From positions 54,166 through 118,165 of the forward strand of contig JAHDEX010000003.1 in NCBI GenBank assembly GCA_020628545.1: DNA of 64,000 nt, read 5' to 3'. The notes below the pieces were generated by a model, which saw only the letters and a program-made list of their open reading frames with translations, had not been told where the DNA came from and searched no databases. A program made the position numbers and the translations under genes. Numbering within the stretch: the first letter of the stretch is position 1; each line of letters starts with the position of its first letter. The stretch is from Paracoccaceae bacterium (lineage in GTDB: Bacteria > Pseudomonadota > Alphaproteobacteria > Rhodobacterales > Rhodobacteraceae). Shown here one piece after another: positions 20,181 through 23,590 of this stretch.

Positions 20181-20756
20181 TTAAGCCCTGTGATTGATGG
20201 TCCCAATATTCCACCGCTGCAAGTCGTAGGTCATGTCAGTAACCGACAACGGCTCAATCTGATGGCCCATCGCCTCATACGCGCTGCCGCCGCACTGTGC
20301 GATCATCGTCATGATCATGCCCATATGGCCGACGACGACGATATCGTCCGCTGACTGCCTCTCCGCGAGGTCTCTCAAAGAAGAGACAACGCGCCGTGAC
20401 ACAGTATTCCAGCTTTCACCGCCGGGAGGCGCGAGGTCACCAGGCTCTTCCCAGAATCGGCGGGAAAGATCCGGATCCCGATTGGCCACATCCGTGAAGT
20501 GCAGCCCATCCCAGGCGCCGAAATCAAACTCGCGAAGCGTCTTTCGCGGCGACAAAAGTGTTCGTCCCTTGGCAATCGCCGTCGCCGTCGCCGTCGCACG
20601 CCACAGGTCGGACGATACAACGACGGCATCTGGCGGGAGATAGTCGGCCAGACGCTCAACCGCCGCCGCGTCCGATAAATCCGCAGGCACATCGCGCCAA
20701 CCAGTGAAGGCCTTTTCATGCGTCGGCCCGTGTCGGACCAGCCAAAACCGGGTCAT
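20181..20756 (-). CDS. histidine phosphatase, probable alpha-ribazole phosphatase
   Basis: The 191-residue protein has the RHG catalytic motif at the start (FWLVRHGPTHEKAFTGW), the acid-base region REFDFGAWDGLHF and a second histidine in VVVGHMGMIM, so it belongs to the phosphoglycerate-mutase-like superfamily. Overlap of 4 bp with cobU suggests the CobC role, removing phosphate from alpha-ribazole 5'-phosphate in cobalamin assembly. The superfamily is broad, so the substrate is inferred from context. A short GCCGTC repeat encodes an alternating ATATATA stretch near residue 57. Confidence 0.8.
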   Translation of the reverse strand: MTRFWLVRHGPTHEKAFTGWRDVPADLSDAAAVERLADYLPPDAVVVSSDLWRATATATAIAKGRTLLSPRKTLREFDFGAWDGLHFTDVANRDPDLSRRFWEEPGDLAPPGGESWNTVSRRVVSSLRDLAERQSADDIVVVGHMGMIMTMIAQCGGSAYEAMGHQIEPLSVTDMTYDLQRWNIGTINHRA

Positions 20757-21286
20757 CCCTCTTTCAACTGCGGCAGTTCACCTTTTAGTGCAAGCGGCAG
20801 CCCCGCGATCACCGTCACGACCGTCTGGGCTTGTTGCGTCAAAAGCTGGTTCAAACGCCCCTGTGAATTCCGAAACCGTCTGGCGAGAGCGTTGTCTGGC
20901 ACGATCCCCAGCCCCACCTCGTTTGACACAACTACGACGTCGTTTTCGCAGTTTTCCAAAGCGGTCAACAACGCGGCACACTCTTGCTCTATATCCCGTT
21001 CAGCCAGCATAACATTTGTCAGCCACAGCGTGACGCAGTCCAAGAGGACAATGTGGTCTGCCGGAACGCTGTCGAGCGCAGAAACGAGGTCAATTGGTGC
21101 ATCAACTGTGATCCAATCATCGCCGCGATCTTGTTGATGTTTGTGCACTTTCTCACGCATCTCGGAGTCGAAAGGTTGCAGCGTCGCAATGTAGGTTTTG
21201 GGTTTTTTTGGTGCGCGCGCGACCCGCTCTGCATAGGCCGATTTTCCGGAGGCACCACCGCCGACCACAAAAAAAAGTGACCCCAT
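20753..21286 (-). CDS. cobU: adenosylcobinamide kinase / adenosylcobinamide-phosphate guanylyltransferase
   Basis: The enzyme phosphorylates adenosylcobinamide and then adds GMP, in the nucleotide loop assembly of vitamin B12 (called CobP in aerobic-pathway species). The 177-residue length is standard. The P-loop is FVVGGGASGKSAYAERVA; HQQDRGDDWITVDAP and VVSNEVGLGIVPDNALAR are the other conserved blocks. It heads the minus-strand run, and no cobalamin riboswitch is visible in the 100 bp upstream, which it shares with rpoH. Confidence 0.94.
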   Translation of the reverse strand: MGSLFFVVGGGASGKSAYAERVARAPKKPKTYIATLQPFDSEMREKVHKHQQDRGDDWITVDAPIDLVSALDSVPADHIVLLDCVTLWLTNVMLAERDIEQECAALLTALENCENDVVVVSNEVGLGIVPDNALARRFRNSQGRLNQLLTQQAQTVVTVIAGLPLALKGELPQLKEG

Positions 21287-21309
21287 CGAAATTTTTTCGC
21301 CCCACGTAG

Positions 21310-21338
21310 TGATCCAATTAAGTGAACGCCGCGTAACA
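21310..21338 (+). promoter_or_regulatory. RpoE-type (ECF sigma) promoter of rpoH
   Basis: TGATCC (21310-21315), an 18-base spacer and TAACA (21334-21338) match the pattern of Rhodobacter sphaeroides RpoE promoters (TGATCC ... TAAGA-like), recalled from the literature. The -10 ends 48 bp before the rpoH ATG. Known biology agrees: in that species rpoHII is a target of RpoE during singlet-oxygen stress. Confidence 0.7.
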
Positions 21339-21386
21339 CAGGCAATAGCACGAGAAAAACGGCATTCAAATCGATAGGGAAATAAA

Positions 21387-22265
21387 ATGGCACTAGACGT
21401 GTTTTCTGACCAATCAATGACCCGTACCGCGATGAAAGCGGAATTGTTGGATGCAGAAACGGAGCTGGCGCTAGCCTACGCTTGGCGCGACGAACGCGAC
21501 GAACAAGCCCTGCATCGCCTGATCACAGCTTACATGCGCCTCGCCATCTCTATGGCCGGTAAGTTCAAGCGTTACGGCGCACCAATGAACGATTTGATCC
21601 AAGAGGCTTCGGTTGGCCTCATGAAAGCAGCTGACAAATTTGATCCAGACCGCGGCGTACGTTTTTCAACCTACGCAGTGTGGTGGATCAAAGCCTCGAT
21701 CCAGGACTACGTGATGCGGAACTGGTCGATGGTCAGAACAGGCTCAACCTCCTCCCAAAAGAGCCTGTTCTTTAATTTGCGCCGGGTGCAGGCGCGCCTC
21801 GAACGTGAAGCGGCCGCCGAGGGCCGGGTCCTGGACCGGCAGGACATGCGCGAGATGATCGCTCTCGAAGTTGGCGTTCCGCTGCATGACGTTGAGATGA
21901 TGGAAGGGCGGCTTTCCGGCTCTGACTTCTCTCTGAACGCGACGCAATCGACTGATGAAGAAGGGCGTGAATGGATCGACGCGCTTGAAGATGACAGCCC
22001 GCAGGCTGCAGACACCGTTGAAAACAGCCACGACACGGACACGCTGCGTCAATGGCTGCTCATGGCGCTGAATAATCTAAACGATCGGGAACGTTTTATC
22101 GTACGTGAGCGTAAGTTACGTGACGACCCGCGTACGCTCGAAAGCCTTGGTAACGAGCTTGGCTTGTCGAAAGAACGCGTTCGCCAGCTTGAGGCTGCTG
22201 CATTCGGGAAAATGCGCAAGTCTTTGGAGAACCATAACCCAGAGGTGCATCGCTTCCTGATATAG
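21387..22265 (+). CDS. rpoH: RNA polymerase sigma-32 factor, RpoHII type
   Basis: The 292-residue sigma factor has region 2 with DLIQEASVGLMKAADKFDPDRGVRFSTYAVWWIKASIQDYVMRN, the RpoH-specific SLFFNLRR box after region 2 (SQKSLFFNLRRVQARL) and a region 4 helix-turn-helix (TLESLGNELGLSKERVRQLEAAAFGKM). RpoH factors direct heat-shock and oxidative-stress genes. The TGATCC-type promoter upstream suggests this is the RpoHII paralogue under RpoE control; assignment to type II rests mainly on that. ATAGGGA precedes the ATG. A GC-rich terminator follows. Confidence 0.93.
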   Translation: MALDVFSDQSMTRTAMKAELLDAETELALAYAWRDERDEQALHRLITAYMRLAISMAGKFKRYGAPMNDLIQEASVGLMKAADKFDPDRGVRFSTYAVWWIKASIQDYVMRNWSMVRTGSTSSQKSLFFNLRRVQARLEREAAAEGRVLDRQDMREMIALEVGVPLHDVEMMEGRLSGSDFSLNATQSTDEEGREWIDALEDDSPQAADTVENSHDTDTLRQWLLMALNNLNDRERFIVRERKLRDDPRTLESLGNELGLSKERVRQLEAAAFGKMRKSLENHNPEVHRFLI

Positions 22266-22286
22266 CGACACCCCGACCACTCACGC

Positions 22287-22318
22287 AAAACCCCTCTCGC
22301 ATCTGCGGAGGGGTTTTT
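22287..22318 (+). terminator. intrinsic terminator of rpoH
   Basis: CCCCTC (22291-22296) pairs with GAGGGG (22308-22313), with inner pairing CGCA/TGCG, and the stem is followed by TTTTT. It starts about 25 bp after the rpoH stop codon. Confidence 0.9.
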
Positions 22319-22396
22319 CTATGCCCTCTTGGGTCAGCGGGAATTGCCCCTTCTGCAGCAAATGCCTAACTTACCTGCAAAGCGAGGGCCCGGAAC

Positions 22397-23590
22397 ATGT
22401 TGGCTGACAAACATATTTTGCTAATTATCGGTGGCGGGATTGCAGCCTACAAGGCGCTCGATCTGATCCGCCGACTACGCGAGCGTGGGGCCAGCGTAAC
22501 ACCCGTTCTGACGAAAGCGGGCTCGGAATTTGTCACACCGCTTTCGGTCTCTGCCCTGTCCAGCAACAAACTCTACAGCGACCTGTTCGACCTCACGGAT
22601 GAGGCCGAGATGGGCCACATTGAACTTTCGCGCGCGGCTGATTTGATCGTGGTGGCACCGGCAACCGCCGATCTGATGGCCAAGATGGCCGCGGGGTTGT
22701 CAGGCGATCTGGCATCGACCTTGCTGCTGGCAACGGACAAACGGGTCTTGATCGCCCCTTCGATGAATGTGCGCATGTGGGAACACCCGGCCACGCAACG
22801 CAACTTGGCGACACTGCAAGGCGATGGCATTCTGACAGTGGGCCCCAACGATGGCGACATGGCCTGCGGCGAATACGGCCCCGGACGGATGGCGGAACCT
22901 CTGGAAATCGTGGCTGCCGTGGATGCGGCGCTCAGTGACGGCCCGCTTGCTGGGAAACATGTGGTTGTCACCTCCGGTCCGACGCACGAGCCTATCGATC
23001 CGGTGCGATACATCGCCAACCGCTCTTCAGGGGCGCAAGGCACAGCCATTGCATCGGGGCTTTTGGCGCTAGGTGCAAAGGTGACCTTTGTGACTGGACC
23101 AGGAGATGTCGCACCACCGCGCGGGGTCGACCTTGTGGAAGTGCAAACCGCCAAACAGATGCAGGACGCTGTCAACGCCGCACTCCCTGCCGATGCGGCG
23201 GTCTTCGCAGCAGCAGTCGCTGATTGGCACGTCGCAAATGCGTCAGACAACAAGATCAAGAAAGACAAAGCTGGCTTGCCCACCTTAGAATTCGCTGAAA
23301 ACCCCGACATCCTTGCCTCCATCTCGCAGATGGCCTCGGGCCGACCCGGCCTGGTTGTCGGCTTCGCCGCAGAGACGACAGATGTGATTGCCAACGCGAC
23401 CGCGAAGCGTGAGCGGAAAGGCTGTGACTGGATCGTAGCCAACGACGTCTCACCGGAAACCGGCATTATGGGTGGTTCGGAGAACGATGTGACGCTCATC
23501 ACTTCCGAAGGCGCAGAGGACTGGCCACGCATGGGAAAATCTGAGGTGGCCGCACGGCTTGCCGCGCGCATTGCGCAGGCCCTAAGCTGA
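22397..23590 (+). CDS. coaBC: phosphopantothenoylcysteine decarboxylase / phosphopantothenate-cysteine ligase
   Basis: CoaBC makes 4'-phosphopantetheine for coenzyme A in two steps: joining cysteine to phosphopantothenate, then decarboxylation. The 397-residue protein has the N-terminal flavoprotein CoaC domain ([37 protein letters not shown] and the catalytic-cysteine block [12 protein letters not shown]) and the C-terminal CoaB domain ([22 protein letters not shown] and [10 protein letters not shown]). It is followed by dut after 22 bp. Confidence 0.96.

Follow-up and report, generated by a model that had tools for sequence, protein, structure and literature searches.

The element at positions 21310-21335 is very probably an ECF11 (RpoE) promoter, which would put rpoHII under the control of the singlet-oxygen sigma factor in this Paracoccaceae bacterium. 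The 64,000-nucleotide stretch of DNA that we analysed (hereafter the window) belongs, on good evidence, to the known RpoE to RpoHII cascade and adds one phototroph of the Yoonia/Loktanella neighbourhood to this photo-oxidative stress cascade, both predicted partners having been found. The source organism is a marine photosynthetic bacterium and the arrangement of promoter and rpoHII was already known; the new part is a comparison within the family, according to which there is an even chance that the sigma input of rpoHII has repeatedly changed hands. The features of the region are the following.

20753-21286, minus strand: cobU, adenosylcobinamide kinase, the divergent neighbour (NF004469, 194.9 bits; PF02283)
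21310-21315, plus strand: TGATCC, putative −35 element of an ECF11 (RpoE) promoter, an exact match to the motif of PMC5036791, conserved in genus and family
21331-21335, plus strand: putative −10 element GCGTA (core CGTA at 21332-21335), spacer 15, or 16 to CGTA
21341-21344, plus strand: predicted transcription start region, placed by the usual ECF −10-to-start distance, with a 5' UTR of about 43-46 nt
21375-21380, plus strand: likely ribosome-binding site TAGGGA, read from the letters
21387-22265, plus strand: rpoHII, RNA polymerase sigma-32-family factor of 292 aa (NCBIfam NF005693 (PRK07500), 457 bits, cut-off 315; Pfam Sigma70_r2 and r4)
22287-22317, plus strand: intrinsic terminator found by RNA folding, stem AAAACCCCTC/GAGGGGTTTT with CGC/GCG at its top, then a T run
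22397-23590, plus strand: coaBC, the downstream neighbour (TIGR00521, 397.8 bits), then dut

The first-pass annotation had placed TGATCC-N18-TAACA at 21310-21338 and 48 bp ahead of the rpoH start codon, and the plus strand reads exactly so (TGATCCAATTAAGTGAACGCCGCGTAACA, with the ATG at 21387). In the published notation these letters become TGATCC-AATTAAGTGAACGCC-GCGTA with a spacer of 15, identical to the RpoE (ECF11) motif of R. sphaeroides, TGATCC(N15)GCGTA (PMC5036791). The RpoE pattern proposed earlier holds letter for letter, with one refinement: the −10 element is GCGTA/CGTA, three bases ahead of TAACA, which is therefore the tail of the −10 region and not the element itself. The whole element sits in a 100-bp gap between the start of cobU (21286) and rpoHII. 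This gap contains no GGAAC, hence no EcfG promoter of the form GGAAC-N16/17-CGTT, no RpoH-type element and no sigma-70-like site. One could imagine a mixed input, in which RpoE is the main sigma factor and basal rpoHII expression comes from a second promoter inside cobU or from read-through. The sequence is compatible with such a basal input, but cobU, encoded on the other strand, extends to the very edge of the gap, and 21200-22420 holds no sigma-70-like match, so that we regard this arrangement as unlikely and keep to the reading of a single RpoE-type promoter.

The gene behind the promoter is rpoHII, as the annotation had named it, and not the heat-shock paralogue rpoHI. Its product scores far above the cut-off of the RpoHII model and reaches 279 bits with the general rpoH model TIGR02392, below the cut-off of 323; the downstream coaBC-dut synteny is that of RpoHII, and an rpoHI-type paralogue with 43% identity to RpoHII lies at a separate genome locus. 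A simple scan for terminators was negative because the stem at 22287-22317 carries a one-base bulge. The fold nevertheless has an energy of −22 kcal/mol (z −3.75), and none of 200 shuffled sequences was equally stable. With a terminator after it, rpoHII is therefore probably transcribed alone.

As a bare string, the motif at 21310-21338 is only mildly unusual. TGATCC-N17..19-TAANA has a single match in the window, with both strands scanned, while shuffled windows contained 0.15 matches on average and at least one in 15 of 100 shuffles. The annotation had also called for a search for other TGATCC-N18-TAAnA sites; the whole genome (4.34 Mb) gave 13 matches to the loose TGATCC motif, most of the inspected ones intragenic, and the correctly spaced CGTA form showed no obvious enrichment genome-wide among the matches listed. 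On these grounds we rejected genome-wide motif counting as support. A second intergenic copy in the same genome, TGATCC-N16-CGTAACA (L004, G000:C82:28361-28389, minus strand), is a candidate further RpoE target; it lies 74 bp before a gene for an efflux-type membrane-fusion-like protein, divergent from a TetR-like gene.

The element at rpoHII is more than chance because of its position and its conservation. TGATCC-N16-CGT is kept at the same spacing in 20 of 20 same-genus rpoHII upstreams (those read in the right frame, three misoriented rows being left out). Among 131 Rhodobacteraceae rpoHII upstreams, TGATC(C/T)-Nk-CGTA occurs 80 times at k=16 and 0 or 1 time at any other k from 6 to 30. According to a further alternative, the TGATCC match is fortuitous, and a housekeeping or heat-shock promoter drives rpoHII. 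The shuffled windows leave some room for it, but the same element recurs at one spacing before the orthologous gene of 80 among 131 genera, which speaks strongly against it, as does the lack of a sigma-70-like site in the region, and we give it almost no credence. Beside the RpoE-type promoter, most same-genus leaders (for example L058-L069) share a block, AAAGTTAATGCA, that follows the −10 at about 25 nt and is missing in the window; it is possibly a 5' UTR regulatory element or a second promoter part.

An RpoE to RpoHII cascade needs its regulators, and an rpoE-chrR pair had been predicted elsewhere in the genome. It is found on contig C111, where chrR (TIGR02451, 214 bits, cut-off 124.5, by profile search) lies directly 3' of an ECF sigma factor gene, rpoE. 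In the PDB, both proteins come closest to the SigE-ChrR complexes of R. sphaeroides, 2q1z/2z2s (E 1e-76 and 6e-78). Aligned with 2z2s, ChrR keeps the zinc ligands listed in PMC6852236 in both domains, HxxxCxxC and the cupin HxHxxxE/H, as in a ZAS/cupin anti-sigma factor. The own promoter of rpoE reads TGATCT-N16-CGTA. Next to the pair lies a divergent RSP_1091/1090-like operon, with a FAD-dependent amine-oxidase-like protein and then DUF1365, which is preceded by TCATCC-N16-CGTA (L044, minus strand, 3110); this gene order, rpoE-chrR beside RSP_1090/91 homologues, is reported to be conserved in Rhodobacteraceae (PMC7074977). The genome also encodes the reaction-centre L and M genes (pufL, pufM), and the cell therefore has a photosynthetic source of singlet oxygen. 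In R. sphaeroides, phrA is an RpoE target. Around the four photolyase-family loci of the present genome there is no strict copy of the motif, and the remaining R. sphaeroides RpoE regulon is therefore without support here.

We then considered the family. RpoHII (presence threshold E 1e-70) and ChrR were sought in 160 genomes, each under a different genus, and promoters were classed in 131. One genome, G084, had appeared as a ChrR-negative genome with a perfect TGATCC promoter. It matches the published primers for R. sphaeroides rpoHII (RSP_0601) exactly and is R. sphaeroides; its ChrR negative is a masking artefact, because the expected rpoE-chrR locus beside the DUF1365 gene (G084:C4:2848001-2888000) reads N, and the case was rejected. 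With G084 corrected to ChrR-positive here and in all counts by ChrR state, and with the reservation that other negatives could hide similar gaps, 121 genomes carry both genes, 12 rpoHII only, 13 ChrR only and 14 neither (p=1.4e-6). One same-genus genome, G022, lacks both chrR and rpoHII. In 13 ChrR-positive genomes (e.g. G048, G052, G069, G085, G090) RpoHII was not detected at E 1e-70, and the pair can therefore be uncoupled. An ECF11-like promoter (TGATCY, close variants, TGAACC or GGAACC, with CGTA) precedes rpoHII in 106 of 119 ChrR-positive and in 2 of 12 ChrR-negative genomes (p=2e-7), and 84 of the 119 have a TGATC-type −35. This conservation across the family supports the conserved RpoE to RpoHII cascade that the annotation had suggested.

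A different element takes this position in many of the genomes without ChrR. An EcfG-like element occurs there in 2 of 119 ChrR-positive and 6 of 12 ChrR-negative genomes (p=4e-6), the class being GGAAC followed at EcfG spacing by GTT or CGTA and, like the hybrid patterns, widened after the sequences had been seen. The strict form GGAAC-N16/17-CGTT, in the tree set, was present in 6 of 22 rows then labelled ChrR-negative and in 2 of 77 ChrR-positive rows. The background of the patterns is low: a shuffled upstream matches in 0.3 to 0.6% of cases, and the reverse strand gave 1/131 for each class. No ECF11 RpoE was found in the tested ChrR-negative genomes, where the best matches had at most 35% identity. 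In a set of 50 named genomes, the nine that lack ChrR, seven Loktanella and two Rubellimicrobium, coincide exactly with the nine that have GGAAC-type upstreams (L190, L207, L218, L219, L225, L226, L227, L240, L245), although they represent two clades and one genome is common to both genome sets. All nine have NepR, the only general-stress regulator surveyed. All 41 ChrR-positive named genomes are ECF11-like at rpoHII. Further GGAAC-type upstreams occur in the rpoE-chrR-less genomes G046, G087, G098, G132 and G163. The RpoHII tree requires ChrR to change state 13 times, of which supported branches force only 3, and an independent-pairs comparison yields 3 pairs on supported branches, few for a test.

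Hybrid forms also exist. TGAACC-N15/16-CGTA stands before rpoHII in G088, G089, G186 and G194 and in about 16 others of the family. In these four, the genomes compared, the promoter of rpoE itself remains TGATCC; it is therefore the target promoter that moved and not the preference of the sigma factor, and we rejected the reading of TGAACC as a change in RpoE specificity shared by both promoters. Among the genomes compared, only G070 shows a joint shift, with TCATCC at both the rpoE and the rpoHII promoters (L170 and L314/L396), as if the −35 preference of RpoE had moved together with its target. We propose, giving the idea equal weight for and against, that in Rhodobacteraceae the input of rpoHII may have been handed repeatedly from RpoE (TGATCC) to EcfG (GGAAC-N16/17-cGTT), tracking the loss of rpoE-chrR, with TGAACC and GGAACC as single-base hybrids between the two, possibly recognised by both sigma factors. 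The existence of these hybrids suggests that rpoHII passed to the general stress response step by step. A search of open papers yielded no description of such a sigma switch at rpoHII within the family. TGATCC, TGAACC, GGAACC and GGAAC..GTT form a natural series along which the type of promoter can be compared with the loss of the regulator, and a regulon's change of master sigma factor thereby becomes directly testable with small reporter constructs.

The same comparison bears on the window, where EcfG or a different ECF sigma factor could be the main reader of rpoHII, as happens in rhizobia, the TGATCC match being incidental. Rhizobium etli rpoH2 is under EcfG1 with the motif GGAAC-N16-CGTT (PMC3892343), the present genome has two NepR matches, and ECF −10 elements are alike (CGTA, CGTT). 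However, the 100-bp gap is devoid of GGAAC, the −35 has the exact ECF11 form, and EcfG-like elements are rare in ChrR-positive genomes (2/119), to which this one belongs; we hold this explanation to be highly improbable and retain RpoE as the sigma factor of rpoHII.

That RpoE binds here, that rpoHII is induced, where its transcript starts and which genes RpoHII controls are inferred. By analogy with R. sphaeroides, ChrR would hold RpoE as a zinc anti-sigma factor, and singlet oxygen or organic peroxide would lead to the loss of ChrR and to free RpoE. The latter would bring RNA polymerase to TGATCC-N15-GCGTA ahead of rpoHII, RpoHII would be produced from a single-gene transcript, and it would in turn switch on a larger repair regulon.

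The closest known system is the RpoE-ChrR to RpoHII cascade of R. sphaeroides (ECF11; RSP_1092/1093, RSP_0601), in which rpoHII transcription is reported to be absolutely SigE-dependent (PMC6852236). It shares with our case the promoter motif and spacing, the RpoHII family, the RSP_1090/1091 homologues by rpoE-chrR and the zinc ligands of ChrR. It differs in that here, as known from sequence, the −35 of rpoE is TGATCT and that of the divergent operon TCATCC instead of TGATCC. In the Roseobacter group, the genera of Roseobacter denitrificans and Dinoroseobacter shibae are likewise reported to have rpoE-chrR beside RSP_1090/91 homologues (PMC7074977), and rpoHII is light-regulated in D. shibae (PMC4373377), whereas some Roseobacter-named relatives carry TGAACC, not TGATCC, before rpoHII. 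In Rhizobium etli, a gene of the rpoH2 group is also driven by an ECF sigma factor with a CGTA/CGTT-like −10 (PMC3892343), but there the −35 reads GGAAC and control lies with NepR/PhyR/EcfG instead of ChrR/RpoE.
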